The notes under the pieces: generated by a model | The model's input: the letters and a program-made list of their open reading frames with translations, nothing else | What the model was told of the DNA's origin: nothing | The model's database searches: none | Translations under genes and position numbers: made by a program | Virus record (IMG/VR): IMGVR_UViG_3300017752_000017 | Coordinates: 1-52,514 of that record | Strand: one strand, 5' to 3' | Source of the DNA: a virus | DNA: 52,514 nt | Part shown: piece by piece, positions 3,137 to 49,506 of the stretch | Layout of the letters: every line of letters starts with the position of its first letter | Position numbering within the stretch: the first letter of the stretch is position 1

Positions 3137-3149
3137 AATATTATTTATT
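3137..3149 (-). promoter_or_regulatory. Late-type promoter, leaderless geometry
   Basis: Minus strand AATAAATA (3149-3142), 5 nt (ATATT), then GTG 3136. It matches the T4 late -10 consensus TATAAATA except at the first base. I see no -35 element. Confidence 0.65.
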
Positions 3150-3855
3150 ATATGATGAGCTTATTTACGTCTTTTGGATCTGTATAACCGTCTTTAGTGT
3201 TTCTGAACTGTGCTTCAATCTTTTCCATTTCATTAATATCTAACAATCCTTGCTCGTCAATAGACTTACCTGTATCAGGGTCAATATACAACTGGATCAT
3301 ATGTAATCTTTCTCTAGGATTACCAAAGACTTCAATTATAGCAGGTTTGTCATCTTTAGGAAAGAAGGTTGATGTCGGTTGCAACCACTGCTGATACATA
3401 GCTTTATATAGATTATCAATTTCCTTAATGTATTTATCATCAGTTTCGCGTTGTGATCTACTCACAATATCAACTGGTGCTACTGATGTTATAGGTATAA
3501 AAAATATTATGTCTATAAACTTCATAGACTCTCTTACTAGTGGTACACACTTGTCAATGAATTCTCTGTCAAATCCATCTTTATTTTTATCATGAGACCA
3601 TAGACTATACACGATATTATCTAGTGGACATCTATCAAAAATAATATTTTGACCACTATGATAATTCATTAGTTGTTCAGACATAAAATCTAAAATCTTA
3701 AATTGTTGCTCGATTGTAGTGTCTTTGCTATGACACTCATCAAGTATGTCTCTATAACTAGTTTCTGGTTGTTTGTATGATGTATATGTTTTTAAAAAAT
3801 CATTAATCAAGGTTGTTTTACCTTGACATGATGTACCTGATACTGCGATTCTCAT
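3148..3855 (-). CDS. P-loop kinase / AAA_28-type NTPase
   Basis: A 235-aa nucleotide-binding protein with an N-terminal Walker A (MRIAVSGTSCQGKTTLI; GTSCQGKT at about residues 7-14) and a downstream DRCPLDNIVYSLW motif like NadR- and thymidylate-kinase-type P-loop kinases. Such AAA_28 proteins recur in marine T4-like phages next to nucleotide-metabolism genes. The ORF extends to 3894, but ATG 3855 places the P-loop at the N-terminus, lies just after the upstream stop, and is 5 nt after a CATAAATA late box. It follows the phosphoribosyltransferase gene. A nucleoside or nucleotide kinase is likely; the substrate is unknown. Confidence 0.75.
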   Translation of the reverse strand: MRIAVSGTSCQGKTTLINDFLKTYTSYKQPETSYRDILDECHSKDTTIEQQFKILDFMSEQLMNYHSGQNIIFDRCPLDNIVYSLWSHDKNKDGFDREFIDKCVPLVRESMKFIDIIFFIPITSVAPVDIVSRSQRETDDKYIKEIDNLYKAMYQQWLQPTSTFFPKDDKPAIIEVFGNPRERLHMIQLYIDPDTGKSIDEQGLLDINEMEKIEAQFRNTKDGYTDPKDVNKLII

Positions 3856-3868
3856 GTTAATATTTATG
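3856..3868 (-). promoter_or_regulatory. Late-type promoter, leaderless geometry
   Basis: Minus strand CATAAATA (3868-3861), then TTAAC and ATG 3855. The box overlaps the TAA stop of the upstream phosphoribosyltransferase gene. It would give the kinase a late transcript besides read-through from the queD unit. Confidence 0.6.
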
Positions 3869-4382
3869 TACGTTCCCACGGGAACACAAGCCATTTATTA
3901 TCACAACGGTTACCAGTGTAATCAGGAACAAACACACTCCGATCTTTACAATATAATGCAGCTGTTGATATACTAACAACACCTTTATGAAACTTCTTAT
4001 ACATACGATTAACTAATCCTTTCATAGTCACACCTTCGTCGCATAGATCATCAACTATCAAGATGTTACGACCTGGTAAACCTTTCATGAGATCGTACAT
4101 TACATCCTGGTACATCATTCCATGTACATTACTAACATCTCTCTTTTTAGTTTCATCGTCATAACTATGATATCCATGTACCATAACTTCTCTGATTTTA
4201 AGTTTATGTGCTAAGATTGTAGCTGGTACTAAACCACCTCTACTCAACCCTACAATGCTGTTGATAACAAGATCATCATTAGATATTTTATCCGCAATAA
4301 TATTACAACATTCTGTAATCTCATCCCACGACAACATAGATTTACAATCTAAACCGTTAGAGGTTTGAGTATCTGAGCTCAC
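3864..4382 (-). CDS. Type I phosphoribosyltransferase
   Basis: A 172-aa phosphoribosyltransferase. The PRPP-binding signature ILIVDDLCDEGVTM lies at about residues 106-119, and SIVGLSRGGLVPATILA near residue 43 is the usual upstream loop of hypoxanthine/xanthine-type enzymes. It transfers ribose 5-phosphate from PRPP to a nucleobase. Start is GTG 4382, abutting the queE stop (TGAGTG), so it is translationally coupled to queE. Being next to queE and a P-loop kinase, it could act in base salvage or on a 7-deazapurine base; that is inference, and the substrate is not readable from the sequence. Confidence 0.8.
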   Translation of the reverse strand: MSSDTQTSNGLDCKSMLSWDEITECCNIIADKISNDDLVINSIVGLSRGGLVPATILAHKLKIREVMVHGYHSYDDETKKRDVSNVHGMMYQDVMYDLMKGLPGRNILIVDDLCDEGVTMKGLVNRMYKKFHKGVVSISTAALYCKDRSVFVPDYTGNRCDNKWLVFPWERT

Positions 4383-5147
4383 TCAAACTCCGGTTGTCTG
4401 ATCCCAGGCACTTACATGAAGCCGGGTGAGACCTACAAAACCATACTTCTTAGCCATTTCCATACAAAACAATGTACGTTCATGATAATCTTCTTGTTTA
4501 TCTAAACCAGGCATCATCAATACTCGTGTAGGTTCAATGTCGAAAGGTATCACAAAATCTTCAACAATTTCTTTTATGTCATCTTCTTGACTTATTACAA
4601 ATTTAAAAAAGTGATTATGATGTTCTTTGATACGCTCAAGAGCCTTGTTGACAATTCGACGATCTTTACTCATGCCACTATTTTCTAGCTTAACGGAGCA
4701 ATTGATTTGATGTAATTTACTAAACAAATCATTCTCAATGAAGATTGTACCGTTGGTTTCAATTTCATTGTAAACACTACTACTTGGGTTTTTTGAATAA
4801 AACCATTCTAAGAAATTGTTTATGGATTGTTGGTTCTTAGGGATGGTGGGTTCACCGCCAGTCCAGATGAGATGTACTCGACCCTGTTTAATCCAGTTGA
4901 GTACATCATACTCTTTCCATCTATCGACAAGGTATTCAAAAGGCTTTTCTAAACCTTTCTTCCAAACATATTCAGTATCACACCACCAAGTGGCTTTACC
5001 TTCTTTTACCAAACTACCATCTCTACCTCCACACATCAGATTACATGCTTTTAGTCTGATGAAATATGCTGGTACACCAGTAGTAGCACCTTCTCCTTGA
5101 ATAGAATAAAAATCCTCGGAGATGTTTAAAGTCTCGTACTTATGCAT
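4383..5147 (-). CDS. queE: 7-carboxy-7-deazaguanine synthase QueE (radical SAM)
   Basis: A 254-aa radical SAM enzyme that converts 6-carboxytetrahydropterin to 7-carboxy-7-deazaguanine, the third step to preQ0. Visible are FYSIQGEGATTGVPAYFIRL (substrate loop), IWTGGEPT (the SAM-binding GGE motif) and NEIETNGT. The iron-sulfur cysteines are unusually spaced: C35-X3-C39-X16-C56, so a 14-residue insertion separates the second and third cysteines of the usual CX3CX2C. ATG 5147 is chosen because it overlaps the upstream stop by 8 bp (ATGCATAA). It is in one unit with QueD and a small conserved protein. Confidence 0.9.
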   Translation of the reverse strand: MHKYETLNISEDFYSIQGEGATTGVPAYFIRLKACNLMCGGRDGSLVKEGKATWWCDTEYVWKKGLEKPFEYLVDRWKEYDVLNWIKQGRVHLIWTGGEPTIPKNQQSINNFLEWFYSKNPSSSVYNEIETNGTIFIENDLFSKLHQINCSVKLENSGMSKDRRIVNKALERIKEHHNHFFKFVISQEDDIKEIVEDFVIPFDIEPTRVLMMPGLDKQEDYHERTLFCMEMAKKYGFVGLTRLHVSAWDQTTGV

Positions 5148-5382
5148 TACTGCTTCCGCTTTCTTCGCTTGTTGTATTATCGTTTGCAAAATATTTTTGT
5201 ATTGTTGCGATCAAAGAGTCTAACTTGTCTATCTCTTCAATCTTGGTTCTTATTTCTTGTCCAATGTCGCTATGTTCACCGACACCTACAGGTCGTTCAA
5301 GATACACGGTCAAGTCCGCGATCACTTCATCTTTTCTACCAGCATATTGTGACAGTATTCCGTTAATGTGTTGTTTACTCAT
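5140..5382 (-). CDS. Conserved small protein between queD and queE
   Basis: An 80-aa mostly helical protein. The pattern RKDEVIADLTVYLERPVGVG followed by EHSDIGQEIRTKIEEIDKLD resembles a small protein I recall from many marine T4-like phages, without known function. It sits between queD (3-nt gap) and queE (8-bp overlap), so it is co-transcribed with the 7-deazaguanine genes. This does not prove a role in that pathway. The C-terminus is low-complexity and acidic. Confidence 0.7.
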   Translation of the reverse strand: MSKQHINGILSQYAGRKDEVIADLTVYLERPVGVGEHSDIGQEIRTKIEEIDKLDSLIATIQKYFANDNTTSEESGSSNA

Positions 5383-5385
5383 AAA

Positions 5386-6024
5386 TTAAAATCCCCAGGT
5401 AGTCTCACCGGTGAGCCATGTGTTTTTTTCTTTCTTAGGCCAAAGATTAGTCTTTGACTTATCTCTTGTATCATTTAACACTGCAGTTTTATTCACTTCA
5501 ACTACTTCTTCGACTCGTTCTTCAACTGCAATTGGCTCATCCATATTTATGATATTACTTGCTTGAGTATCAATCGCAACTGTTTTGTCTACCTTTTCAA
5601 AGATCGCTGAATTATTTTCATGTTCAAAAACTTCAACCTTGATACATTTACATCTCTTGTCTGTCAATCGTTGTACATGTTCATCTGCTGTACCATGGCA
5701 CCATTCGGCAAATTTTTCTATACCAACTCCATCCATGATTCTAAGATCACATAACTCATTATCTCGCAGTTGCTCAAACAACATGATTTTTGGATCAGCT
5801 CTGGATATACATGTTGTGTGGTCGAATTGGTTTTGTAAAATATTTTTCAGTTCTTTAAGACCACCAAAATCCACTACCCAATTGTTTTCATCAAGACTAC
5901 TTGCTTCAAACCAAAATTTAGCTGTGAGTCTATATCCATGTAGATATTTACAATGAGATGTAGCTGTAGGTTGGCGGAATGCGCAGCTACCTAACTCTAT
6001 AATTTTAGTACTTTTAAATGACAT
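5386..6024 (-). CDS. queD: 6-carboxytetrahydropterin synthase-like QueD
   Basis: A 212-aa member of the 6-pyruvoyltetrahydropterin synthase/QueD family, which turns dihydroneopterin triphosphate into 6-carboxytetrahydropterin. The Cys of the active site is kept (SHCKYLHGY; Cys25), as are DFGGLKEL, FDHTT and a C-terminal VEVFEHENN glutamate. Two of the three classical zinc histidines are not: AHR is AFR (Phe16) and HGH is HGY (Tyr31). About 70 extra C-terminal residues are low-complexity. An early-type promoter ends 6 nt before ATG 6024. It heads the unit queD, 80-aa gene, queE, phosphoribosyltransferase, kinase. Confidence 0.8.
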   Translation of the reverse strand: MSFKSTKIIELGSCAFRQPTATSHCKYLHGYRLTAKFWFEASSLDENNWVVDFGGLKELKNILQNQFDHTTCISRADPKIMLFEQLRDNELCDLRIMDGVGIEKFAEWCHGTADEHVQRLTDKRCKCIKVEVFEHENNSAIFEKVDKTVAIDTQASNIINMDEPIAVEERVEEVVEVNKTAVLNDTRDKSKTNLWPKKEKNTWLTGETTWGF

Positions 6025-6058
6025 GCTTTAATTATAGCATATCATTTTCGAGATTCAA
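6025..6058 (-). promoter_or_regulatory. Early-type promoter of the queD-queE unit
   Basis: Minus strand TTGAAT (6058-6053), 16-bp spacer, TATAAT (6036-6031), 6 nt, then ATG 6024. It has the same geometry as the folE and gp32 promoters. The mRNA would start at the ATG. Confidence 0.8.
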
Positions 6059-6511: not shown

Positions 6512-6524
6512 ACAAATATTTATT
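6512..6524 (-). promoter_or_regulatory. Late-type promoter, leaderless geometry
   Basis: Minus strand AATAAATA (6524-6517), TTTGT, then ATG 6511. No -35 element and no Shine-Dalgarno site fit upstream of the start. Confidence 0.65.
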
Positions 6525-6935: not shown

Positions 6936-7624
6936 CAGTTTAGTAAAATATTTATTACCTGGTCTTCCTGATCTGGAGATAAAAATCCAGGACCATTGAA
7001 TTCAGCACCAGCACCAGGCCCTGGTAACAGATTTCTCAACGTGTCAGCATCTTTTATACCAATCGCGATATCATGTATTGCACCTCTTGTTTCTGTACCG
7101 GAAGCATATCTAGCTACTGGTCTAGCCATAACATCTGTCACATGTGAACCTTTGTATAATACACCATCTTTGAAGAACGCGGAGTATCTTCCTTTCAGGT
7201 CTTCGGCTCCTGCGTATAAAGAAACCTGTAACTGTTTACTTTTAGATTTGTTGTATATATCTTGGGCATCACTATGTACGTCAATCTGCTTGTCAGATAC
7301 TAATTTGCCGCTGTTGTTGAGCAAATTGACAGCTTGATATGTAACCGCAACCGGGCTACCTGATACAACTTTGATTTCAATGTTAGGTTTTTGCATTGCT
7401 TCAAGATAAATCTTCCATATCGCTACCATCTTCTCAACAGTTATATTAGGGTCTCTACAACTGTCAGATGCAATTATATAACAATTGGTATTCTCTTCAC
7501 TCATTTGTTTAGCAGTCATATAATGACCTTTGTGAGGTGGTGAAAAGCACCCTGGGAAGAAACCAACGCTTGTCTGTTGTTGTTCGTCAACAAAAGATTC
7601 AAAAAATTCTTTAAATGTGTTCAT
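6935..7624 (-). CDS. HxGH nucleotidyltransferase with head-targeting-like leader
   Basis: A 229-aa protein with a cytidylyl/adenylyltransferase core: VGFFPGCFSPPHKGHYMTA contains the nucleotide-binding HKGH at about residues 32-35, and the ISSTxxR-type motif region may be the RYASGTETRGAI stretch. Such enzymes couple a nucleotide to a phosphorylated substrate. The N-terminus MNTFKEFFESFVDEQ looks like the short leader of T4 internal head proteins (compare the ligase-like protein at 10091-11431). It overlaps the upstream gene by 1 nt (TAATG). Substrate unknown; packaging in the capsid is inferred from the leader only. Confidence 0.75.
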   Translation of the reverse strand: MNTFKEFFESFVDEQQQTSVGFFPGCFSPPHKGHYMTAKQMSEENTNCYIIASDSCRDPNITVEKMVAIWKIYLEAMQKPNIEIKVVSGSPVAVTYQAVNLLNNSGKLVSDKQIDVHSDAQDIYNKSKSKQLQVSLYAGAEDLKGRYSAFFKDGVLYKGSHVTDVMARPVARYASGTETRGAIHDIAIGIKDADTLRNLLPGPGAGAEFNGPGFLSPDQEDQVINILLN

Positions 7625-8040
7625 TATGTTTTGAAGCTGTTTCTGTAAATGTTGAGCAACTGCAAATCACACAATCCGAATTGTCCTAAATACATCTCAA
7701 GTTGTTCAAGTGTTTCTATTAAATCTAGTTGTTTCAATTCACATTCAGATTCGATATGACCATGTTTGATTAAACATTCCATCGCAGCTCCCTTGAGCTT
7801 ACATAAACTAGATTCAACCGGCGGTTGTATCATTTCTATAGAATCAGCTCCAACATTCATTATTCCATCCATCAAACCTGGGATGAATATAGTAGCACTA
7901 TTTGATGTTTCATCCTCTTCAAGTAAATACCCTTCATAACTTTGCATGGATTCATGGTTACCTGGATCACGTTTGAATCTAATTTTCTTAAGAGATATCG
8001 AGCCTAGTGCTTGTTGAATTATATTATTGAGACTACTCAC
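7624..8040 (-). CDS. Hypothetical protein
   Basis: A 138-aa protein I do not recognise. An N-terminal helix (NNIIQQALGSISLKKI) and a central beta region with PGLMDGIMNVG precede a helical C-terminus. Start is GTG 8040, 5 nt after an AATAAATA late box. It is first in a likely late unit with the nucleotidyltransferase and the 134-aa protein, which may be virion proteins. Confidence 0.6.
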   Translation of the reverse strand: MSSLNNIIQQALGSISLKKIRFKRDPGNHESMQSYEGYLLEEDETSNSATIFIPGLMDGIMNVGADSIEMIQPPVESSLCKLKGAAMECLIKHGHIESECELKQLDLIETLEQLEMYLGQFGLCDLQLLNIYRNSFKT

Positions 8041-8053
8041 AACATTATTTATT
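8041..8053 (-). promoter_or_regulatory. Late-type promoter, leaderless geometry
   Basis: Minus strand AATAAATA (8053-8046), ATGTT, then GTG 8040. It lies back-to-back with the early-type promoter of folE on the other strand. Confidence 0.65.
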
Positions 8054-8064: not shown

Positions 8065-8099
8065 TTGAAATACTCAATTGAGCAGTTATAATTGTGTTT
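8065..8099 (+). promoter_or_regulatory. Early-type promoter of folE
   Basis: TTGAAA (8065-8070), 16-bp spacer, TATAAT (8087-8092), then 7 nt to ATG 8100. It is close to the sigma-70 consensus. The predicted start is 8099, so the mRNA has at most a 1-nt leader. Confidence 0.85.
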
Positions 8100-8762
8100 A
8101 TGAGTAATGTTATGAATTTAGATGGAGTGAAGCTAACCTTTGCAAATGGTAATCATCCGCGGTCAGAAGAAGAAAAACAACAGATTATTGAGAATGCTGC
8201 TAAGGCGTATGAAGCGTATATGGATGCCCTAGGATTTGATTGGAGAAATGACCCTAACAGCGCTGATACACCTAGAAGAGTCGCGAAAGCTTTTGTAAAC
8301 GATTTGGCTGCCGGTTGTTATGATGCCCCTCCGAAGATTACGACTTTTGATAATGTGGATCAGTATGATGGTCTTGTGTTTCAAGGTAACATCAAAACCA
8401 ACTCTTTCTGTTCTCATCACCATCTACCTTTTATAGGTCAAACACATGTAGCGTATATACCAGGTAAGGATGGTCAGGTTATCGGTTTGAGCAAATTGAA
8501 TCGTATAGTGGAGTGGTTCTCTCGTCGACCACAAGTGCAAGAAAACTTAACCATGCAGATACACAAACATATTAATGAGGTGTGTGTAGGTAACAATGGA
8601 GTGGCAGTACTTGTTGAGGCTAACCACACTTGCGCTGGTCTTAGAGGTGTCAAACATGACAGTACAATGAAAACTGCGAGAATGAGCGGAGCCTTTTTTG
8701 ACAAGAAGGACATAAACACCAGACAGGAATTTTACGATTTTGTGAGAGATTTAAAAAGATGA
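8100..8762 (+). CDS. folE: GTP cyclohydrolase I, FolE
   Basis: A 220-aa GTP cyclohydrolase I that makes dihydroneopterin triphosphate from GTP, the first step of preQ0 synthesis. The zinc and active-site residues are in place: FCSHHHLPF (Cys and His ligands), AYIPGKDGQVIGLSKLNRI, and NHTCAGLRGVKH with the third ligand Cys. Length and full-domain conservation fit a functional enzyme. The frame also has a GTG at 8094, but ATG 8100 sits right after the promoter. With queD, queE and queC elsewhere in the window it completes the preQ0 set. Confidence 0.95.
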   Translation: MSNVMNLDGVKLTFANGNHPRSEEEKQQIIENAAKAYEAYMDALGFDWRNDPNSADTPRRVAKAFVNDLAAGCYDAPPKITTFDNVDQYDGLVFQGNIKTNSFCSHHHLPFIGQTHVAYIPGKDGQVIGLSKLNRIVEWFSRRPQVQENLTMQIHKHINEVCVGNNGVAVLVEANHTCAGLRGVKHDSTMKTARMSGAFFDKKDINTRQEFYDFVRDLKR

Positions 8763-9798: not shown

Positions 9799-9811
9799 GA
9801 TAATACTTAAT
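9799..9811 (-). promoter_or_regulatory. Late-type promoter variant, leaderless geometry
   Basis: Minus strand ATTAAGTA (9811-9804), TTATC, then ATG 9798. It differs from TATAAATA by A-to-T and A-to-G changes; its position is what makes it credible. It is divergent to the late promoter at 9828-9841. Confidence 0.5.
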
Positions 9812-9827
9812 ATTTTATGTGTGTAAA

Positions 9828-9841
9828 TATAAATAATTACG
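9828..9841 (+). promoter_or_regulatory. Late promoter, perfect TATAAATA
   Basis: TATAAATA (9828-9835), 6 nt, then ATG 9842. With the T4 late rule (TATAAATA at -13 to -6) transcription would start exactly at the ATG. Confidence 0.75.
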
Positions 9842-14339: not shown

Positions 14340-14353
14340 TGATATTATTTATA
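14340..14353 (-). promoter_or_regulatory. Late promoter, perfect TATAAATA
   Basis: Minus strand TATAAATA (14353-14346), 6 nt (ATATCA), then ATG 14339. It drives the three-gene unit ending at 10091; the predicted mRNA is leaderless. Confidence 0.75.
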
Positions 14354-16188: not shown

Positions 16189-17618
16189 GTATAAAATTTA
16201 CATTAGATAAATCAGGTCAAAAGGGTGTTATTTCTGGAGATCGTTTCGAAGAGATACGTGAAGCATTCAGTGTTGCAAATGATGCCGCAAAATTCATGAG
16301 ATATCGCTCACGTTTCGCGCCTTCACGTAGATATGCCATCACACCAGGTGGTAAGTTTGATATCGGGTTATATTATGAAATAAAAAAATATCTTGTATCA
16401 CAATCAATCACTAGCAACATATTGGTTGAAGATGATTTTCGTAAAGTTGTCACGCCAGGTTATAATAACAAGCAAACAGCCAAATTAAATTTGTCGTTGA
16501 GAGATTACCAGCAATCGATTGTCGATATGTGTCTACGAGTGGGTAGAGGTGTATGTGTGCTTGCTACTGCAGGTGGTAAGACTTTAACAATTGCTAGTCT
16601 AATTCAATCTGTATTTGACACAAACAAGACCATCAAGTGTTTGTTGTTGGTACCGGATCTAGGACTCGTGAATCAGACGTACGCTGATTTTAAAGAATAC
16701 GGAGTTTCATTCTTGTATAGCAAATGGACAGGTAATGAACCTTTAAATCTAGGATCTAACGTGATTATTGCCAATATGGGTATATTGCAAAGTAGTAAGA
16801 GTGATATATCTTGGATCAAGCATATAGACATGTTAATAATTGATGAAGTTCATAAGCTTCGAAAAACGAACAAAATTAATAAAATTATAAAGAGTATACA
16901 CACTCACAACCGGTTTGGTTTCACAGGTACGATGCCAGAAGAAAAAATTGATCAATGGAATATAATTGGTCAAATCGGTCCGATACTATATGAGAAAAAC
17001 AGTTATCAGTTGAGACAAGGTGACTATATAGCTTCTGTCGTCGCACAAGTTCTCAAGTTGGAATACAAGGGTAAACCTAAAGCTGGTAAACCTGGAGCTC
17101 CTACTGATGGATATAGAAAAGAACATGATTTTATAATCGAGTCAGAGTTCAGAAATAACCTGATTGGTAAACTGTGTTCCAACTTCAACAACAATTCACT
17201 AGTATTAATAGACTATATACGTCATGGTGAAGTGCTATATGAATACGTAAAACGAGCATCTCCAGACAAGCAAGTGTTTTTCATACAAGGTGAGGTTGAA
17301 GTGTCACAACGAGACGCGATCCGCAAGTTAATGGAGCAACAAACAAATGTGGTTTGTATAGCTATATCAAAAATATTCTCAACAGGTGTGAATATAAAGA
17401 ATTTACACTTTATTGTGTTCGCTGGTGGTGGTAAGGCTAAGATCAAGACACTACAATCAATAGGACGTGGTTTGAGAAAACATGACACAAAAGACCGGTT
17501 AACAATTATTGATATTGCTGACCAACTCAAATACGGTTATCAGCATATGGTCAAAAGACTGACATTTTACAAAAAGGAGAAAATCAATTATGGCATTAAA
17601 AAAATCAACGAAAACTGA
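16185..17618 (+). CDS. uvsW: DNA helicase UvsW
   Basis: A 477-aa superfamily 2 helicase of the UvsW type, which unwinds branched DNA and R-loops and moves the phage to recombination-dependent replication. Motif I VLATAGGKTLTIA (ATAGGKT at 127-133), motif II DEVH in LIIDEVHKLR, motif III FTGTMPE, and motif VI QSIGRGLRKHD are present. Length is close to T4 UvsW. Start ATG follows a GGAG Shine-Dalgarno site and overlaps uvsY as ATGA. Confidence 0.92.
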   Translation: MSIKFTLDKSGQKGVISGDRFEEIREAFSVANDAAKFMRYRSRFAPSRRYAITPGGKFDIGLYYEIKKYLVSQSITSNILVEDDFRKVVTPGYNNKQTAKLNLSLRDYQQSIVDMCLRVGRGVCVLATAGGKTLTIASLIQSVFDTNKTIKCLLLVPDLGLVNQTYADFKEYGVSFLYSKWTGNEPLNLGSNVIIANMGILQSSKSDISWIKHIDMLIIDEVHKLRKTNKINKIIKSIHTHNRFGFTGTMPEEKIDQWNIIGQIGPILYEKNSYQLRQGDYIASVVAQVLKLEYKGKPKAGKPGAPTDGYRKEHDFIIESEFRNNLIGKLCSNFNNNSLVLIDYIRHGEVLYEYVKRASPDKQVFFIQGEVEVSQRDAIRKLMEQQTNVVCIAISKIFSTGVNIKNLHFIVFAGGGKAKIKTLQSIGRGLRKHDTKDRLTIIDIADQLKYGYQHMVKRLTFYKKEKINYGIKKINEN

Positions 17619-18102
17619 ACAAGACGAAGCTCCACCGGCCAAGCCAGTCAAGAGACCACGTGGTAAGAAGAATGTTCATTATGTGAGTGGTAAAGAGTTA
17701 TTACAACAAATAACGGACTATTATAAGATGGATGCAGAAGTTACAATCCCAGACTTGTTGGGTTCGAATGTATACAAGATAGCCAAAGGATTATCATTTG
17801 CTCCAAACTTCATAAACTATTCATACAAAGATGATATGATCGGTGACGCTATAGTAAAAATGTTTTCAGCACTACAGCAACACAAGTTCAACATCGACTC
17901 TGGATACAATCCATTTTCATATTTTACTACCATTGCTTATCATGCTTTTATCAACAGAATCAAAAAAGAAAAGAAACATAGAGAAGCATTGACAGAGTAT
18001 CAAGAAGCAGTTTATGATGAATTGTTAGGTTCAGATTATAGTGAGGTAGGAGATCAACCAAACCTAACAAATCCATATTCTAGCGAAACAGATGAACAGT
18101 AA
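17590..18102 (+). CDS. 55: Late sigma factor gp55
   Basis: A 170-aa sigma factor of the T4 gp55 type, directing RNA polymerase to TATAAATA late promoters. Sigma region 2-like features are visible: DDMIGDAIVKMFSALQQHKF, then NPFSYFTTIAYHAFINRIKKEKKH. It matches the abundant nATAAATA boxes in this window. Strong Shine-Dalgarno AAGGAG before ATG 17590; it overlaps the end of uvsW by 29 bp and gp47 by 11 bp. Confidence 0.9.
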   Translation: MALKKSTKTEQDEAPPAKPVKRPRGKKNVHYVSGKELLQQITDYYKMDAEVTIPDLLGSNVYKIAKGLSFAPNFINYSYKDDMIGDAIVKMFSALQQHKFNIDSGYNPFSYFTTIAYHAFINRIKKEKKHREALTEYQEAVYDELLGSDYSEVGDQPNLTNPYSSETDEQ

Positions 18103-25299: not shown

Positions 25300-25334
25300 T
25301 TGCCTTTGTCTAGCTAGAATCTATAATATGTTAT
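25300..25334 (+). promoter_or_regulatory. Early-type promoter of uvsX
   Basis: TTGCCT (25300-25305), 16-bp spacer, TATAAT (25322-25327), 7 nt, ATG 25335. It begins a few bases after the terminator T-run. Confidence 0.75.
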
Positions 25335-26585: not shown

Positions 26586-26618
26586 CGCAAACAATAAAAA
26601 TTATACTATAATAAGAAT
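26585..26618 (+). promoter_or_regulatory. Early-type promoter of queC
   Basis: TATAAT (26607-26612), 6 nt, then ATG 26619. At the usual 16-bp distance there is only TCGCAA (26585-26590), a weak -35. Confidence 0.6.
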
Positions 26619-32186: not shown

Positions 32187-32201
32187 TCTATAATAAAAAC
32201 T
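32167..32201 (+). promoter_or_regulatory. Early-type promoter of gp32
   Basis: TTGAAA (32167-32172), 16-bp spacer, TATAAT (32189-32194), 7 nt, ATG 32202. Both hexamers and the spacing are identical to the folE promoter. Confidence 0.85.
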
Positions 32202-35084: not shown

Positions 35085-35947
35085 TGAGATTGTTAATCTT
35101 AGGTAAGGGGTATGTGGGTACTCATTTATATAAAAAAGTGTTACCAGTTGAGCAAATAGAAACAGTGATGTTTTACAGTAAAGATACACTTGACTATACT
35201 AACAGAGATATACTGATCAGTTTCTTAAATGAACATCATGTGGATGTTGTTGTGAATGCCAGTGGTTTCACAGGGAGACCCAACGTTGACCAGTGTGAAG
35301 AGATGCCAAATGAATGTTGGTATTATAACGTTGTAGCGCCGTGTATAATACAGGGTGCGTGTAAAGCAACAAATACAAAATTTATTCAAATATCTTCAGG
35401 GTGCATATATACAGGATATGAGAAACAGTGGTCAGAACATGACACACCGAACTTTGGTGTGTTTGATCAAAGCAGCACTTATAGTAAAACAAAACATGCC
35501 AGTGAGATGGCATTAGACAAAGCATACACAGTGATACTAAGAATCAGAATGCCATTTTCAGAATGTAGTTCCTCTCGCAATTTTATTAATAAATTATTAC
35601 GGTATGAACGATTGATAAGTTATGACAATAGCATGACATGTGTCGAGGATTTTTGTCAAGTATTGTTATCAAATCTACGTACAGTGAAACCTGGTATATA
35701 TAATATGGTGCATGACCAACCATTATCAGCGCGGCAGATAACAGACGTAATCAAGATGCACAGTGATAGAAAATTTGAGTTTGTGGATATAAGTGAGTTG
35801 GTTTTGAAAGCTCCAAGAAGTAATTGTGTGCTCTCAGCCAAGAAAATTCAACAACACGGGATGTCGTTACCACCAGTTCATGTCTCTCTCGACAGATGCC
35901 TTAACAAATTGATGAATGCTAGGTTGGCTGAAAAGAAAAAGTCCTGA
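35084..35947 (+). CDS. NAD(P)-dependent sugar epimerase/reductase (RmlD-like)
   Basis: A 287-aa short-chain dehydrogenase. RLLILGKGYVGTHLYKK carries the Rossmann GxGxxG-type loop, VVNASGFTGRPNVDQCE and ISSGCIYTGYE follow, and YSKTKHASE has the catalytic YxxxK. Likely acts on a nucleotide-sugar, such as dTDP-4-dehydrorhamnose or a GDP-sugar, to supply a glycosyltransferase. It begins 1 nt within the preceding stop and overlaps the next gene by 32 bp. Confidence 0.85.
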   Translation: MRLLILGKGYVGTHLYKKVLPVEQIETVMFYSKDTLDYTNRDILISFLNEHHVDVVVNASGFTGRPNVDQCEEMPNECWYYNVVAPCIIQGACKATNTKFIQISSGCIYTGYEKQWSEHDTPNFGVFDQSSTYSKTKHASEMALDKAYTVILRIRMPFSECSSSRNFINKLLRYERLISYDNSMTCVEDFCQVLLSNLRTVKPGIYNMVHDQPLSARQITDVIKMHSDRKFEFVDISELVLKAPRSNCVLSAKKIQQHGMSLPPVHVSLDRCLNKLMNARLAEKKKS

Positions 35948-38502: not shown

Positions 38503-38518
38503 ATTAAAAATATTTATA
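38503..38518 (-). promoter_or_regulatory. Late promoter, perfect TATAAATA
   Basis: Minus strand TATAAATA (38518-38511), 8 nt, ATG 38502. It is divergent to the plus-strand late box at 38528; the two boxes are 9 bp apart. Confidence 0.7.
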
Positions 38519-38527: not shown

Positions 38528-38541
38528 CATAAATAATTAAA
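38528..38541 (+). promoter_or_regulatory. Late-type promoter, leaderless geometry
   Basis: CATAAATA (38528-38535), 6 nt (ATTAAA), ATG 38542. Confidence 0.7.
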
Positions 38542-38937: not shown

Positions 38938-38957
38938 ACGTCTATTATAATAGATAC
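38924..38957 (+). promoter_or_regulatory. Early-type promoter before the membrane zinc-ribbon gene
   Basis: TTGATA (38924-38929), 16-bp spacer, TATAAT (38946-38951), 6 nt, GTG 38958. The predicted leaderless start is the GTG. Confidence 0.75.
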
Positions 38958-40093: not shown

Positions 40094-40094
40094 T

Positions 40095-41350: not shown

Positions 41351-41363
41351 ATCTATATTTATA
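41351..41363 (-). promoter_or_regulatory. Late promoter, perfect TATAAATA
   Basis: Minus strand TATAAATA (41363-41356), TAGAT, then ATG 41350. It directly abuts the T-run of the upstream terminator. Confidence 0.75.
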
Positions 41364-41394
41364 AAAAAACCCTGCGGCTTTCACCACAGGGTTT
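41362..41394 (-). terminator. Rho-independent terminator before a late promoter
   Basis: Minus strand stem AAACCCTG (41394-41387) / CAGGGTTT (41374-41367), extended by GG/CC around one mismatch, 6-nt loop, followed by a run of T. It ends the transcript of the nested structural gene; the next promoter starts in its tail. Confidence 0.85.
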
Positions 41395-41416
41395 CAAATT
41401 GAGCGTTGTTGGTTAC

Positions 41417-41944
41417 TTAGCTTAAGAGACCTTGGTTGCCGCCCTTGACGTGTCCGTCAACTTTGTTGCTAGAACCTGAAGTCATTTTGCTAACTGTGTC
41501 GGGTAAGGATTTTGGTTTGCCACCGTCCTCTTGACCGCTTGTGTCTGCGCTAGCGCCACCGGTTGTAGTTTTGCTGGCATGCCCAGGTACCTTATTGTTG
41601 TTACCTGTAAGACCGGATGGATCATGACCAGGTTGTGAACCGTCATTAGTATGCTGTGCTTCTACACCTTCTGGAAATGGATTCTCATTTTCAAAGCCTC
41701 CATCCTCACCACCGTCGAGATCTTCAATTTCATCTTCACCTTCTCCTTCGATCTGGGAAAGAATCTCTTTAAGAGCACCAACTTGGTCTTGCGTTAATGT
41801 AATGGTAACGTCACCGCCCTCGATGCCGTCATCCATACCCTCATCACCTTCATCACCGAATCCAATGTCGAGAGAGTCACCTAACTCATCATCAGCTTCC
41901 ATGATTGTGGAGTACAATTTATCGAAAATATTTTTATCGCTCAT
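41417..41944 (-). CDS. Nested short form of the prohead-core-like protein
   Basis: A 175-aa product from the in-frame ATG 41944: SDKNIFDKLYSTIMEADDE is a typical leader ending in IME, then DVTITLTQDQVGALKEIL and the acidic body and Gly-rich tail shared with the long form. A perfect TATAAATA lies 5 nt before it, the same geometry as separate late genes. I recall marine T4-like phages with a stand-alone protein of this kind. So the long form may be a fusion of two genes, or both forms may be made. Confidence 0.6.
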   Translation of the reverse strand: MSDKNIFDKLYSTIMEADDELGDSLDIGFGDEGDEGMDDGIEGGDVTITLTQDQVGALKEILSQIEGEGEDEIEDLDGGEDGGFENENPFPEGVEAQHTNDGSQPGHDPSGLTGNNNKVPGHASKTTTGGASADTSGQEDGGKPKSLPDTVSKMTSGSSNKVDGHVKGGNQGLLS

Positions 41945-42214
41945 AACACTATTTATATTGTCATTCACTGTTTTCACTGTTTTTTCAACTTTTTTTGACT
42001 TCGGAGCACCCTTGACAGTCTTATCTTTCTTATCTACCTCTGTTGGTGTGTTGATACCATCAACATTCTCTGGCCCGCTATTTTTCGGATGTACTTGGTC
42101 ATCGACGTTCTTTTCTGTATCAAAACCTTTGAGTTTAGTACTTTCTTGAAGAACATCTTCATAAAGTGTTTCAAGATCTTTCATGTGCCTGGTTAGATTT
42201 CTAGATTGTTTCAC
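41417..42214 (-). CDS. Prohead-core-like acidic structural protein, long form
   Basis: A 265-aa acidic protein from GTG 42214, or 255 aa from ATG 42184 (MKDLETLYEDVLQES, a leader ending in LQE). After a Lys/Val-rich linker it contains a second leader-like start at residue 91, a very acidic Gly-rich middle (EGEGEDEIEDLDGGEDGG) and a Gly/Ser/Asn tail ending GGNQGLLS. GTG 42214 lies 5 nt after CATAAATA, so it obeys the leaderless rule. Likely a head scaffold/core component close to the terminase gene. The in-frame second start at 41944 suggests two products. Confidence 0.6.
   Translation of the reverse strand: MKQSRNLTRHMKDLETLYEDVLQESTKLKGFDTEKNVDDQVHPKNSGPENVDGINTPTEVDKKDKTVKGAPKSKKVEKTVKTVNDNINSVMSDKNIFDKLYSTIMEADDELGDSLDIGFGDEGDEGMDDGIEGGDVTITLTQDQVGALKEILSQIEGEGEDEIEDLDGGEDGGFENENPFPEGVEAQHTNDGSQPGHDPSGLTGNNNKVPGHASKTTTGGASADTSGQEDGGKPKSLPDTVSKMTSGSSNKVDGHVKGGNQGLLS
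41945..41957 (-). promoter_or_regulatory. Internal late promoter, perfect TATAAATA
   Basis: Minus strand TATAAATA (41957-41950), GTGTT, then the in-frame ATG 41944, inside the open frame of the longer protein. Confidence 0.75.
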
Positions 42215-42227
42215 GTAATTATTTATG
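42215..42227 (-). promoter_or_regulatory. Late-type promoter, leaderless geometry
   Basis: Minus strand CATAAATA (42227-42220), ATTAC, then GTG 42214. It is divergent to the terminase gene. Confidence 0.6.
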
Positions 42228-42252: not shown

Positions 42253-43932
42253 ATGAAAACAAACACGAGAGACTATTATCTTGGAAACAAAAACTTACCA
42301 ACAGATTCAGCTAGATTTGAATATACATCAGGGATGGTTCGACAGCTCAAAAAAGCAAGTACAAACTTGCTATACTTTGCAGAGAATTTTTTTTACATAA
42401 TAAATCTTGACACTGGAAGACAGACAATCTCATTGCACAAATGTCAAAAACGTGCACTCCGAAAGATGAGAGACAATCGATTCATAATATTATTAGCAAG
42501 CCGACAGTGCGGAAAAACAACAATGATGACCATATATGCCCTCTGGAATGCATGCTTTAATGATGATCAAAGAGTGTTGATTGTAGCCAACAAAGAAGGT
42601 ACAGCTATAGAAATATTCCAAAGGATACGATTAGCATATGAAGAATTACCTAACTGGCTCAAACCTGGGGTGAAGGAATATGGAAAAACTAGCATGACAT
42701 TAACTAACGGTACTCGAATCGGTATTAGCACCACAACCGGTACAGCAGCAAGAGGTCAATCGGTCAATTGTTTGATATTGGATGAGCTGGCGTTTATCGA
42801 CACGCATTTAGTGGAGCCGTTCTGGAAGTCTGTATATCCTATTATTTCGAGCTCCAAAAAATCAAAAATTTTCATAGCTAGTACACCAAATGGAACGGAG
42901 AACTTATTTTATAAACTATACACCGGTGCAGATACCGGTGGTAACGGATGGACACCTGAGCGAATTGATTGGTGGGAAATTCCTGGTAGAGATGAAAAGT
43001 GGAGAGACCAGACTGTCAAGACATTAGGAAGCTCTGAAACATTTGATCAAGAGTTTGGTAACGTGTTTTTACAGACTGGTGAGAGTGTGATTGACGAAGA
43101 GTTGTTAGACATATTATCTCTAACCACAAAAACTCCAGAACATGTTCTTGAAGACGGTCATTATAAAATCTGGAATACACCAGAACCAGAACACATTTAT
43201 TGTGTTGGTGTAGATATTAGTGAAGGTGTAGGTCAAGCGTCATCTGTGATTCAGGTAATCGACATAACAGATTTGACTAACATTATACAAGTTGCTACAT
43301 ACGCTAGTAACAAGATCAATCCGTTCAACTTCACAACAAAATTATATGAAATATTACAACAGTGGGGATCTCCACTGGCATTGATAGAGAGAAACAATTG
43401 CGGAGCTCAAGTGGTTGATACACTCAAGAACAAATATTCATATGAAGGTATAGTCACATATATGCCAGATAAAACAAAGGTTTCTAACAACAGGATTGGA
43501 GTGATGGCACACACAAATACAAAATACAGAGGTGTGGTTAATATGAGATACTGGATGAACGAACTTAAGTGCGTTGCATTGCAGGATAAAGCCACAGTAC
43601 ATGAATTGAAAAATTTTGTGAGATATCCAAACGGTACATGGAAAGCTCGACAAGGTGCGGATATACATGATGATCGAGTGATGGCATTGATATGGGCTCT
43701 GATGATTTTAGAGACAAGCATAACACAAAGATATCTCGAGATAATAAAGACAGATGAGAATGACAAACCATTGATCGTTAAACCGCTTGATTATGGTATA
43801 CAGGCGTTTGAGCAAAAGGACGGTCCGATAACAAGTTTTTTACAAGATAACATGATGCCCGCCATGTTCAGTGATTATGACACACCAGCTGACTTGACGG
43901 ATTTAGAGTCTCAAGGTTGGGAGTTATTATAA
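42253..43932 (+). CDS. 17: Terminase large subunit gp17
   Basis: A 559-aa packaging motor. Walker A ASRQCGKTT (82-90), Walker B LILDELAFID near 180, coupling ASTPNGTE, and a C-terminal RNase H-like nuclease with VGVDISEG and DDRVMALIWAL. It pumps DNA into the prohead and cuts it. An AGGGAAG Shine-Dalgarno site precedes ATG 42253. The stop overlaps the next late promoter. Length is slightly below T4 gp17 (610 aa). Confidence 0.95.
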   Translation: MKTNTRDYYLGNKNLPTDSARFEYTSGMVRQLKKASTNLLYFAENFFYIINLDTGRQTISLHKCQKRALRKMRDNRFIILLASRQCGKTTMMTIYALWNACFNDDQRVLIVANKEGTAIEIFQRIRLAYEELPNWLKPGVKEYGKTSMTLTNGTRIGISTTTGTAARGQSVNCLILDELAFIDTHLVEPFWKSVYPIISSSKKSKIFIASTPNGTENLFYKLYTGADTGGNGWTPERIDWWEIPGRDEKWRDQTVKTLGSSETFDQEFGNVFLQTGESVIDEELLDILSLTTKTPEHVLEDGHYKIWNTPEPEHIYCVGVDISEGVGQASSVIQVIDITDLTNIIQVATYASNKINPFNFTTKLYEILQQWGSPLALIERNNCGAQVVDTLKNKYSYEGIVTYMPDKTKVSNNRIGVMAHTNTKYRGVVNMRYWMNELKCVALQDKATVHELKNFVRYPNGTWKARQGADIHDDRVMALIWALMILETSITQRYLEIIKTDENDKPLIVKPLDYGIQAFEQKDGPITSFLQDNMMPAMFSDYDTPADLTDLESQGWELL

Positions 43933-43941
43933 ATAGTTTAC
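43928..43941 (+). promoter_or_regulatory. Late promoter, perfect TATAAATA
   Basis: TATAAATA (43928-43935), 6 nt, ATG 43942. The box contains the terminase stop codon. Confidence 0.75.
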
Positions 43942-44558: not shown

Positions 44559-47018
44559 ATGGCGCGTACAATTCAATCACCCGGTGTAGAGATTAATGAG
44601 ATTGATCTTTCCTTAAGACCCGATCTACCAGTCGGTACAAACATATTAATACCAGGCTTTAGTCCTACAGGACCTGTGGATGAAGTCCTTCAAGTAGCAA
44701 GTCTGTCCGAATTCGAGCAAGTTTACGGGCTACCGACTAATGCTGCAGAGAGGTATTTTTATCACACTGTCCGTGGAGCATTTCAAAGCCCTGGAAACAT
44801 TTATGTATCTAGACTACCATATGGTGCAGATAGGGGTGACACATTTGAAGACAAACATTATTCAGCGACAATATATCCAGTCCGACCTGTAAAGCATACA
44901 TACAATGAAGGTAATGTTGTATCGACTGAGTTTGTTGATGATTATAAAAACTATAATGAGATCAACGGGTATGATATTCACGCACCAGAATTCATCGAGC
45001 TCAATCAAGACCAATATCAGAAATTAATAGATGGTGAAGTTGAGTGGAACTCGACATACACGACCAGCAATGCATCACTCTCAGGTGACAGTGATGGTAC
45101 GATAATGCAGCGTATTGGTAATGCTGGTATTGTTATACTCAATCATCGATCCTTTACAGTAAATGAAAAATTTGAAGGATATTATGTTGGTCTTGCCGAT
45201 TCTGATGATTTCTTTCCTAACTCAAATTATGAGAGTGTTAAGAGTGTAAGAACTATCAATAAAAACTCAGCAACGCAATCAAAGTCACTTGAAAACGCAT
45301 ATCGTGATATACCAACATCTAGATTGTCATTTGGTTTAGATTGTGCAAATGAAACTGCAGAATCAGCTACACCTGGGTTGAATAGATACGCTGAAGGTAC
45401 AGTTTCTGAAGTGGTTGAGAACTTACCATCATTTGATATATCAACAGATGAATTTACAGATATATTAGTGTTAGGTTTATTTAAATTGCGCAAATCAACT
45501 TTAGATCCGGATACAGAAAAACTAGACTATGTACTGTCTGAGTATCATATTGGTTCATTAAACTCTAACAGACAGCAGTACGATCCAAACGGAGGCACTC
45601 CGGTGTCGTTCGCATTAAAAGACCTGACAGACTCATCACCTAATGTTCAGTTGTTTATCAACAAACATATATCCGAATCAGGTGATTGGGTTGACCGGTA
45701 TGGTGACTCTAGAGAAGACAAATATGGTACCCGAACTTCACCAGGTTCTGGTGTTGAAGTTGAAGATTTTGTATCTGAATCTGTATTGTCAAGAATCAAA
45801 ATGACAGTCAAGCCAGAGGCAAAAGCTCTTTTTGCCCATGGGTTGTACAAGGAAGCAGCAGTCACAACCAATCAAGTAGGAGCGATACCGACTAAACTAG
45901 AACGTATATTTGAGTTGATTGACAATCATGAACTATTCCCGCTTGACCTCACACTTGAAGGTGGGTTAGGTACAATCTTCGCCGCTACTAACGGTGGTAG
46001 AGACACCGCGAATTTTGATGACGAAAAAGCGTTAAATTTGATGAGCAGTGCCGCTAATGGTGGACCTTCCTGGGATCCAATAGATGGTCCATCACATGCA
46101 TGGGATTACAGTTATACTGACGGAGAAGGCAAGACTCAAAATTTACTATACAGTGCCGGTCAACATCAATTCCTAGGTGGTCCTGTCATTTGGTATCGTA
46201 ATGTAGCTAATCGATTCGTTGAATTCGCAGAAAAGAAACGGAAAGATCATATGTGTATTCTAGATCCGATGAGACATATTTTTGTACAAGGCGTCAATTC
46301 AACAGTTCTGAGTGACAAAAACAAAAATTTTAGCCAACATGTATACTGGCCACTGCGGCATATTTATTCAAGTATCAACACTAGCTACGGTGCAGTTTAT
46401 GGCAATTGGTCTAAAGTGTTTGACGGTCAATTAGGTAGAAATGTATGGGTGCCAATGAGCGGTTACATGGCTGCTATGTATGCCAATACGGATGCTAATT
46501 ACCAGCCCTGGTTCGCACCAGCTGGTTTCACTCGAGGTGTACTCAATGGTATCGCTGATATCGCAGTTTATCCAAAACAAAAGCACCGTGATCAGTTGTA
46601 CAAAATCAATGTGAACCCGGTAGCAAATTTCCCTAATGATGGGTTTGTAGTATTCGGACAAAAGACATTGCTATCAAAACCAAGTGCATTTGACCGAGTC
46701 AATGTACGTAGATTGTTCTTATACCTTGAGAAAGCCACGCGTGCCACAGTCAAATACTTTGTTTTCGAACCTAACACACTATTCACACGTACACAAGTGG
46801 GTAACGTGTTAGCACCTATCTTTGACCGGGCCAAAAATACACAAGGATTATATGATTACTTGTTAATCTGCGATGAGAGAAACAACACACCTGATGTGAT
46901 TGATCAAAATGAGATGGTGATTGATATTTACATCAAGCCAGTACGAGCAGCAGAATTCATCTTAGTCAACTTCTACGCAACTAGAACAGGTCAAGACTTC
47001 AGTGAATTAGTGTCCTAA
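44559..47018 (+). CDS. 18: Tail sheath protein gp18
   Basis: An 819-aa contractile sheath protein. The N-terminus RTIQSPGVEINEIDLSLRP and VFIPGF-like NILIPGFSPTGPVDE, then a C-terminal sheath domain with NPVANFPNDGFVVFGQKTL, DRVNVRRLFLYLEKA and IKPVRAAEFILVNF, are typical. It is longer than T4 gp18 (659 aa), the extra mass lying in the middle, surface-exposed domains. It contracts around the gp19 tube during infection. Confidence 0.95.
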   Translation: MARTIQSPGVEINEIDLSLRPDLPVGTNILIPGFSPTGPVDEVLQVASLSEFEQVYGLPTNAAERYFYHTVRGAFQSPGNIYVSRLPYGADRGDTFEDKHYSATIYPVRPVKHTYNEGNVVSTEFVDDYKNYNEINGYDIHAPEFIELNQDQYQKLIDGEVEWNSTYTTSNASLSGDSDGTIMQRIGNAGIVILNHRSFTVNEKFEGYYVGLADSDDFFPNSNYESVKSVRTINKNSATQSKSLENAYRDIPTSRLSFGLDCANETAESATPGLNRYAEGTVSEVVENLPSFDISTDEFTDILVLGLFKLRKSTLDPDTEKLDYVLSEYHIGSLNSNRQQYDPNGGTPVSFALKDLTDSSPNVQLFINKHISESGDWVDRYGDSREDKYGTRTSPGSGVEVEDFVSESVLSRIKMTVKPEAKALFAHGLYKEAAVTTNQVGAIPTKLERIFELIDNHELFPLDLTLEGGLGTIFAATNGGRDTANFDDEKALNLMSSAANGGPSWDPIDGPSHAWDYSYTDGEGKTQNLLYSAGQHQFLGGPVIWYRNVANRFVEFAEKKRKDHMCILDPMRHIFVQGVNSTVLSDKNKNFSQHVYWPLRHIYSSINTSYGAVYGNWSKVFDGQLGRNVWVPMSGYMAAMYANTDANYQPWFAPAGFTRGVLNGIADIAVYPKQKHRDQLYKINVNPVANFPNDGFVVFGQKTLLSKPSAFDRVNVRRLFLYLEKATRATVKYFVFEPNTLFTRTQVGNVLAPIFDRAKNTQGLYDYLLICDERNNTPDVIDQNEMVIDIYIKPVRAAEFILVNFYATRTGQDFSELVS

Positions 47019-47019
47019 C

Positions 47020-47035
47020 CATAAATAATTTAACC
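47020..47035 (+). promoter_or_regulatory. Late-type promoter of gp19
   Basis: CATAAATA (47020-47027), 8 nt, ATG 47036. The transcript would begin 1-2 nt before the ATG. Confidence 0.65.
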
Positions 47036-47587: not shown

Positions 47588-47601
47588 AAACAGAATTGAT
47601 G

Positions 47602-47614
47602 CATAAGTATTTGT
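47602..47614 (+). promoter_or_regulatory. Late-type promoter variant, leaderless geometry
   Basis: CATAAGTA (47602-47609), TTTGT, then ATG 47615. One A-to-G change from the usual box. Confidence 0.55.
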
Positions 47615-48583: not shown

Positions 48584-48585
48584 GG

Positions 48586-48598
48586 TATAAATTTTTAT
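48586..48598 (+). promoter_or_regulatory. Late-type promoter variant, leaderless geometry
   Basis: TATAAATT (48586-48593), TTTAT, then GTG 48599. An ATG two bases upstream is out of frame and stops at once. Confidence 0.55.
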
Positions 48599-49495
48599 GT
48601 GAACCGTTTTTGTTACGATGTGTATGTACCAAGCATACAATCCAATGTTAAGTTTTATGAATTGATCAATAGTGATTATTTGAGCATGCTCAAATTCTTG
48701 CAAAACAATGATGATGAAGGTCTTTCAGCATTTATAGAGTATTTACTTATACAATTGATCGTTGACAAGAAACATCACCATCAATTCGATCGACTGGATA
48801 AATACTGTATCTTACTCACTGTCATAATGATATCCTCCGGGAATGTACTAGAGTTTACAACGACATGCGCAGAAACTAAAAAACAATACAATATAGAGGT
48901 TGTACTTGGTGAAATCATATCTGCTATAAATGATATTAAAATTTCCGGTACGGAGGTAAACGTGGATAACAACATAAAGATAAAGTTGAGTCCACCTCGG
49001 TCATTACGAGGACCGTTTAACACACCAATAACGAGTATAACTATTGATTCGATTGAGCAAGACACTACCAATTTCACAACAGATCAATTAGACGATTTAA
49101 TATCCGTACTACCTTACAACGTTTTTACAGACTTACAACAGACATATAAAACCATACATGATAGCTGCACCGGTGTTGATTATTTCAGTTACATAAACCC
49201 ATATCAACCTGAAGCTCAACCTATTAAGTATACATTCAATCTGTTTGATGATAGTTTTTATCAATTTATCAAGCTTGTACTCAAAGAAGATTTATTGAAT
49301 TATTACAAGGTTATGTATACATTGACGACAAAATTCAAGTTAGATATGTCATATATCCAAAGCATAACACCCAATGAGACCAAAACATATCTATCACTAA
49401 TCAAACAAGACATAAAGGAGATCAAAGAAGGTCATCAACAAAATCAGCAACAACAACCACCTACACAACCAGTTGCACCTGATCCGGCTGGGTAA
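48599..49495 (+). CDS. Baseplate hub protein, gp26/gp28-like
   Basis: A 298-aa protein whose N-terminal part (YDVYVPSIQSNVKFYELI; SMLKFLQNNDDEGLSAFIEY; FDRLDKYCILLTVI) follows the pattern of T4 gp26-type baseplate hub proteins: a strand, a long helix and a 'D-x-x-Y-x-x-L-x-x' segment. C-terminal Gln/Pro-rich tail. The next gene is of the same family. Start GTG 48599. Confidence 0.6.
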   Translation: MNRFCYDVYVPSIQSNVKFYELINSDYLSMLKFLQNNDDEGLSAFIEYLLIQLIVDKKHHHQFDRLDKYCILLTVIMISSGNVLEFTTTCAETKKQYNIEVVLGEIISAINDIKISGTEVNVDNNIKIKLSPPRSLRGPFNTPITSITIDSIEQDTTNFTTDQLDDLISVLPYNVFTDLQQTYKTIHDSCTGVDYFSYINPYQPEAQPIKYTFNLFDDSFYQFIKLVLKEDLLNYYKVMYTLTTKFKLDMSYIQSITPNETKTYLSLIKQDIKEIKEGHQQNQQQQPPTQPVAPDPAG

Positions 49496-49506
49496 TAATT
49501 ATTATA
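49494..49506 (+). promoter_or_regulatory. Degenerate late-type promoter
   Basis: AATAATTA (49494-49501), TTATA, GTG 49507. One mismatch from the AATAAATA form seen elsewhere, same position. Confidence 0.4.

Follow-up and report, generated by a model that had tools for sequence, protein, structure and literature searches.

Late promoter boxes in register with start codons suggest leaderless gene expression in an uncultured T4-like virus and its relatives

The stretch of DNA considered here, hereafter the window, is the complete IMG/VR record IMGVR_UViG_3300017752_000017, whose 52,514 bases, with an A+T content of 63%, come from an uncultured virus and, judging from the T4-type core genes they encode, are a T4-like myovirus fragment. 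In this window, A/T-rich octamers of the T4 late promoter type (late boxes) can be found a few nucleotides (nt) ahead of start codons on both strands. A preliminary description had pointed to 15 such sites; all of them could be located, 14 as good late boxes, which match TATAAATA at 6-8 of 8 positions and lie 5 or 6 nt ahead of an ATG or GTG, and one, at 9804, as a weak box. Two boxes with a gap of 8 nt between box and start codon, ahead of the genes starting at 38502 and 47036, belong to the same set and are additional to the 15. The boxes are given below together with the gene or open reading frame (ORF) that follows and its length in amino acids (aa); metagenomic relatives of the window are designated by G numbers.

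3142-3149, minus strand: late box AATAAATA, gap 5 to GTG 3136, gene 2876-3136; a box at gap 5-6 in orthologues from G003, G012 and G018
3861-3868, minus strand: late box CATAAATA, gap 5 to ATG 3855, thymidylate-kinase-like gene 3148-3855
6517-6524, minus strand: late box AATAAATA, gap 5 to ATG 6511, 58-aa ORF
8046-8053, minus strand: late box AATAAATA, gap 5 to GTG 8040, gene 7624-8040; box retained in G012 and G015
9804-9812, minus strand: weak late-like box TATTAAGTA (5 of 8 matches), before ATG 9798, 59-aa ORF; divergent from the 9828 box
9828-9835, plus strand: late box TATAAATA, gap 6 to ATG 9842
14346-14353, minus strand: late box TATAAATA, gap 6 to ATG 14339, 450-aa protein
26578-26585, minus strand: late box ACTAAATA, gap 5 to ATG 26572, 59-aa ORF; box retained in 6 of 7 relatives
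38511-38518, minus strand: late box TATAAATA, gap 8 to ATG 38502; gap 5 in relatives G005, G012, G015 and G018
38528-38535, plus strand: late box CATAAATA, gap 6 to ATG 38542
41356-41363, minus strand: late box TATAAATA, gap 5 to ATG 41350; abuts a terminator hairpin
41364-41398, minus strand: terminator-like hairpin with U-tract (fold -21.1 kcal/mol, then TTTTTTT, then ATAAATA)
41950-41957, minus strand: in-frame internal late box TATAAATA, gap 5 to ATG 41944, inside ORF 41417-42214
42220-42227, minus strand: late box CATAAATA, gap 5 to GTG 42214, 265 aa; retained in G001, G012 and G015
43928-43935, plus strand: late box TATAAATA, gap 6 to ATG 43942, tail tube, phrog_45
47020-47027, plus strand: late box CATAAATA, gap 8 to ATG 47036, tail tube, phrog_45; gap 5-7 in G005, G012, G015 and G018
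47602-47609, plus strand: late box CATAAGTA, gap 5 to ATG 47615, tail tube-like
48586-48593, plus strand: late box TATAAATT, gap 5 to GTG 48599, baseplate hub

Three of the sites (starts 6511, 9798 and 26572) are followed by ORFs of 58-59 aa, and several late-boxed genes encode proteins of unknown function. Orthologues of the gene starting at 3855 have the same N-terminus (MRIA/MRVA) yet lack a late box. It had been proposed that the layout resolves start codons, for instance GTG 3136 and GTG 48599, and both cases hold when orthologues are compared: those of the former retain a late box at a gap of 5-6, while several of those of the latter have a GTG start behind a box-like word at a gap of 5. 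Since the hairpin at 41364-41398 ends on the box of the 41350 gene, upstream transcription should stop there, and this box is the sole promoter-like element between the hairpin and the ATG. The box at 41950, being in frame inside the ORF that starts at 42214, makes two products possible, of 265 aa and 175 aa. The boxes at 38511 and 38528 form a divergent pair between minus-strand (38502) and plus-strand (38542) late genes; Pelagibacter phage HTVC008M likewise has a divergent late-promoter pair, with starts at 18916 and 18943, a few tens of bases apart.

Viral metagenomes contain hundreds of relatives of the window, and the clade was sampled as terminase-anchored loci from the best 80 of them (terminase identity 59-86%), as well as in a set of eight long contigs, namely the window, G001, G003, G005, G010, G012, G015 and G018. 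Chance was assessed by comparing ATAAATA with the 20 other arrangements of its letters, a site being counted when a start codon opening an ORF of at least 70 aa lies 5-6 nt downstream. In the window this holds for 11 of 32 ATAAATA sites; the permuted words reach 13 of 639, which corresponds to about 0.65 expected matches, and the best single one reaches 3. The clade gives 146 of 480 sites versus 291 of 17,979 for the permuted words, many of the latter being shifted copies of the same boxes, and T4, under the identical test, gives 0 of 65.

The preliminary description had called for a genome-wide histogram of box-to-start distances, a flat one counting against it, and this histogram is far from flat, with a sharp peak at gap 5 in the window, its seven longer relatives and the 80 loci. 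The distance from TAAATA to the start has its maximum at 4-6 nt in the eight long contigs. Among the 80 loci, gaps of 4, 5, 6, 7 and 8 nt occur 22, 311, 115, 44 and 36 times, respectively, 79 of the 80 loci contributing, against about five per bin off the peak and a few per bin past 13 nt; with each N-terminus counted once, gaps 4 to 7 are still represented by 10, 167, 58 and 24 cases. An unbiased search for 6-mers upstream of first ATGs also recovers TAAATA at gap 5 (83 observed, 4.1 expected), and the logo of 181 gap-5 starts returns (A/T/C)ATAAATA although only TAAATA had been demanded. No -35 word accompanies these late promoters, the information upstream of the box being at most about 0.34 bit, and the 30 nt upstream of it have drifted to 33% identity between orthologues.

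The start codons themselves are also informative. At gap 5 from ATAAATA, 77 are ATG, 23 GTG and none TTG, and the base at -1 is a pyrimidine in 82% of gap-5 starts versus 53% of box-less starts (p = 1.6e-21). Bacterial RNA polymerase usually prefers a pyrimidine at -1 and a purine at +1, so the start-codon register bears the mark of a transcription start.

The late octamer of T4 spans positions -13 to -6, counted from the transcription start (PMC1524935); with a gap of exactly 5, +1 therefore coincides with the first base of the start codon. The earlier proposal that the start codon would be +1 thus agrees with the gap-5 peak, as a prediction from sequence. The boxes would be genuine T4-type late promoters of the gp55/gp45 class, with +1 at the start codon; at gaps of 6-8, +1 would fall 1-3 nt before it. 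Candidates for both factors are encoded in the window:

17590-18102, plus strand: gp55-like late sigma factor (phrog_234, E 1.5e-33)
33635-34369, plus strand: gp45-like sliding clamp (phrog_223, E 4.6e-8)

Matches to gp55 are present in 13 of 22 relative contigs, those lacking one being possibly fragments.

A second promoter class can be found in the same register. In the unbiased 6-mer search, TATAAT stands out at gap 6 (41 versus 2.5 expected) together with -35-like words (AGTTGA/TTGATT) at gap 28-30, which gives early/middle genes the layout TTGA-N16-TATAAT-N6-ATG. The window contains the following examples:

1400-1405, minus strand: -10 TATAAT, gap 6 to ATG 1393, DUF366 protein
6031-6036, minus strand: -10 TATAAT, gap 6 to ATG 6024, QueD-like; gap 6 in 6 of 6 relatives
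8087-8092, plus strand: -10 TATAAT, gap 7 to ATG 8100, GTP cyclohydrolase I
25322-25327, plus strand: -10 element, gap 7 to ATG 25335, UvsX-like recombinase
26607-26612, plus strand: -10 TATAAT, gap 6 to ATG 26619, QueC-like
32189-32194, plus strand: -10 TATAAT, gap 7 to ATG 32202, gp32-like single-stranded DNA-binding protein
38946-38951, plus strand: -10 TATAAT, gap 6 to GTG 38958

The two classes sort by gene, late boxes being found on tail tube and hub genes and TATAAT on replication and preQ0 genes. This sorting is conserved, a late box being present in 59% of orthologue pairs for late genes and 1% for TATAAT genes, and TATAAT in 58% of pairs for TATAAT genes and 5% for late genes. The earlier suggestion that two sigma classes share one layout is thereby upheld, since the pair formed by TATAAT at gap 6 and a TTGA some 16 nt ahead of it is enriched independently and conserved by gene class. 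Early genes would accordingly be transcribed via an ordinary sigma factor in the same register (TTGA, about 16 nt, TATAAT, 6 nt, ATG).

With regard to translation, no positional peak of GGAG or AGGA was found in the clade, a peak that is present in T4 and HTVC008M-like phages, and the unbiased 6-mer list contains no Shine-Dalgarno word among the position-enriched words. Shine-Dalgarno-like words precede 1% of boxed starts versus 53% of T4 starts. The distance to the upstream stop codon matters as well: starts at -8 to +4 of an upstream stop have a box in 9% of cases, starts 5-60 nt from a stop in 65-69%, and in T4 the same bins give 0-4%. This suggests two modes of starting, leaderless at promoters and coupled within operons.

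With +1 at the start codon in both promoter classes, the mRNAs would be leaderless and without a Shine-Dalgarno site; ribosomes would most likely load directly onto the 5'-terminal AUG or GUG (70S-type leaderless initiation), while downstream operon genes would be started mainly by coupling at overlapping stop and start codons. From the known T4 geometry we infer 5' ends at the start codon, and loading on a 5'-terminal AUG/GUG follows what is known of leaderless messages (PMC9031893). We regard this explanation as a whole (gp55-class late and host-sigma promoters at the start-codon register, leaderless mRNAs, 70S-type starts and operon coupling) as highly probable on the sequence evidence. Selection on translation, as had been suggested at the outset, is the best reading of the sequence evidence, short of proof: the start-codon register is all that the two promoter classes, otherwise unrelated, have in common, there are no Shine-Dalgarno words, and a box usually accompanies starts that do not lie close to an upstream stop.

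Several points weigh against this explanation. Most starts at gap 6 have a purine at -1, which means that +1 may sit one base earlier and leave a 1-nt leader, and the minority of starts at gaps 6-8 may more generally have leaders of 1-3 nt. Many boxed genes have a same-strand upstream neighbour, from which leadered readthrough transcripts may coexist with leaderless ones. Shine-Dalgarno-like sites are retained at the window genes 1408, 16185, 17590 and 40392. Finally, the classification of some individual starts favours boxes by construction; the controls passed through the same procedure.

The minority gaps also feed an alternative that we consider rather unlikely, namely that the promoters are real but give very short leaders (1-8 nt), translation proceeding by 30S binding or scanning with no true leaderless initiation. 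The 115, 44 and 36 starts at gaps 6, 7 and 8 in the 80 loci agree with it, as does the -1 base pattern at gap 6, which fits a +1 one base upstream. However, gap 5 dominates, it carries the -1 pyrimidine, and ATG or GTG but no TTG is found behind ATAAATA; moreover, as leaderless messages are defined by an AUG at or near the 5' end, the difference is mainly one of degree. Some bacteria that do not rely on Shine-Dalgarno sites use A-rich upstream regions, and the octamer could by the same token be an A/U-rich enhancer that recruits ribosomes within a short 5' untranslated region, the true promoters lying further upstream. An A/T-rich clade with no Shine-Dalgarno signal would suit such an enhancer, but it is very improbable, given that an exact word at an exact spacing is found rather than A/T richness, that early genes have a different word with a -35 partner, conserved and sorted by gene class, that the pyrimidine/purine signature of initiation is present, that one box is abutted by a terminator hairpin, and that gp55 and gp45 are encoded. 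A coincidence of base composition, by which TAAATA would occur near starts merely through A/T-rich intergenic DNA in a genome of 63% A+T, has a negligible chance of being correct and is refuted by the controls, as neither permuted words of the same composition nor T4 and T4-like phages of similar composition show the effect.

The late promoters of T4, which depend on gp55, gp33 and gp45 (PMC2988020, PMC1524935), resemble those of the clade in their consensus NATAAATA, the lack of a -35 element, their place on structural genes and the encoded gp55 and gp45, and the variable first T of the box is shared with other T4-like phages. In T4, however, the box lies mostly 13-29 nt upstream with GGAG 5-6 nt before the start, and no ATAAATA is closer than 9 nt to a start, whereas the clade has gaps of 5-8 and no Shine-Dalgarno signal. 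Marine cyanomyoviruses possess the same box (S-PM2 type NATAAATA; PMC2984593) and gp55 family, but in cyanophage S-SM1 and 80 cyanophage-like loci the box distance is broad, about 16-45 nt, with no peak at 5, unlike in the clade. No gap-5 peak was found in Caulobacter phage Cr30, Sinorhizobium phage phiM12 or Synechococcus phage BUCT-ZZ01, and Cr30 and phiM12 were dropped as leaderless candidates as they lack a distance peak. Melnitz and phage C48C1 have 5 and 1 box matches, respectively, near control levels.

As in the clade, 12 TAAATA boxes of HTVC008M lie exactly 5 nt before an ATG (ORF of at least 70 aa), and the deposited annotation sets the same ATGs, among them those of the DNA end protector, head closure, baseplate tail tube cap, baseplate wedge and tape measure genes. 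Unlike the clade, this phage follows a mixed strategy, another 12 of its boxes lying at 15-29 nt and Shine-Dalgarno words forming a clear peak; its relatives (70-78% group) show a minor gap-5 peak. Its large terminase (TerL) has 67-69% identity to cyanophages and 34% to the window. Because this terminase is cyanophage-like and the phage nevertheless has gap-5 boxes, the leaderless layout probably has at least two origins, being partial in HTVC008M with its relatives and complete in the clade of the window. In a survey of pelagimyophages, late promoters reportedly escaped the method applied to cyanophages (PMC7029224), and the short distance between box and start may be the reason.

Leaderless genes of bacteria are commonly recognised by a -10 box some 12 nt ahead of the start codon (PMC3160421). 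The leaderless genes of Actinobacteria and Deinococcus-Thermus resemble the clade in this respect (PMC3160421, PMC9031893), but they involve one host sigma class, whereas a phage-encoded sigma class is placed in the same register in the clade. Like the TA-led class of PMC3160421, the clade has a -10-type box about 10-12 nt upstream and no Shine-Dalgarno site. Phage mRNA that begins at the AUG, as predicted for the clade, has precedents in lambda cI and a few further single messages (PMC9031893); these are isolated cases, whereas the layout of the clade is genome-wide.

The T4-type core genes of the window also include UvsX, UvsY, a gp32-like single-stranded DNA-binding protein, a helicase, a gp46-like protein, tail tube proteins and the baseplate hub, in addition to the following:

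22209-24785: DNA polymerase
42253-43932: large terminase
44559-47018: tail sheath, 819 aa

The closest isolates are distant, the best identity being 33% for both terminase and DNA polymerase. Isolate sheaths align to the C-terminal half of the tail sheath only, from about residue 396, which makes the N-terminal half a possible insertion or domain specific to the clade. A set of six preQ0/7-deazaguanine genes is distributed over both strands:

806-1393, minus strand: DUF366
4383-5189, minus strand: QueE-like
5386-6024, minus strand: QueD-like
8100-8762, plus strand: GTP cyclohydrolase I, 65-90% identity across the clade
26619-27326, plus strand: QueC-like
27328-27993, plus strand: glutaminase-like, adjoining QueC

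This gene set suggests that the phage DNA carries a 7-deazaguanine modification, possibly with an amidotransferase step.

As for the host, WhiB, looked for as a clue, was not found in 16 contigs, and no relatives of TerL were found in bacterial and archaeal genomes. Bacteroidetes promoters have a form of their own, other than TTGA/TATAAT. A Bacteroidetes host, as proposed for other phages with the ribosomal protein bS21 (PMC9723584), is disfavoured, as the early promoters of the clade have the usual TTGA/TATAAT form. Phage bS21 is present in four relatives (G012, G015, G016 and G018), HTVC008M and Melnitz:

L380:1501-1617: bS21, with matches in G012, G015 and G018
HTVC008M 91237-91392: bS21
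Melnitz 35461-35619: bS21

The remaining leaderless contigs, possibly fragments, yielded no bS21, which hence cannot be claimed as the cause of the layout; a link between the two is speculative. A phage initiator tRNA was considered and dropped, none of the five CAT-anticodon tRNAs in relatives having an initiator-type end. Four of the five we take to resemble tRNA-Ile2 or elongator Met tRNA (first base paired), the fifth (G018 b) being ambiguous; those called as Met are:

L106:18905-18980
L126:19242-19316
L135:14398-14472
L136:7272-7347

Genuine transfer-messenger RNA (tmRNA) genes (Rfam RF00023, E 1e-33 to 7e-57), whose predicted tags are long (27-33 aa), can be found in relatives G003, G012 and G010:

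L104:12277-12660, plus strand: tmRNA
L119:282-688, minus strand: tmRNA
L148:5-397, minus strand: tmRNA

While this promoter type and leaderless genes are each already known, T4-type late genes in a leaderless layout appear to be new; no description of them was found in the literature, most subscription journals lying outside the search. The late promoters of T4 are textbook knowledge, and those described members that could be checked mostly drive leadered messages. The alignment of both a phage and a host sigma factor on the start codon would mean that the mode of translation can determine how promoters are spaced. In practice, the layout offers a predictor of leaderless expression in uncultured phages from sequence alone, and it settles where their genes start, also at GTG codons that may escape gene finders whose training relied on Shine-Dalgarno sites. 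It would also constrain the host to one that translates leaderless mRNA efficiently, and an adaptation to a host rich in leaderless genes can be entertained as speculation. It is conceivable, if doubtful, that this abundant aquatic clade gave up Shine-Dalgarno-led initiation genome-wide in favour of leaderless and coupled starts only, which may allow its messages to be translated even while initiation in the host is altered, for example by phage bS21. As HTVC008M has a cultured host and a partial version of the layout, the leaderless idea is directly testable. For a whole uncultured branch of T4-like viruses, the layout suggests a wholesale switch in how protein synthesis is started compared with T4 and its cyanobacterial relatives.

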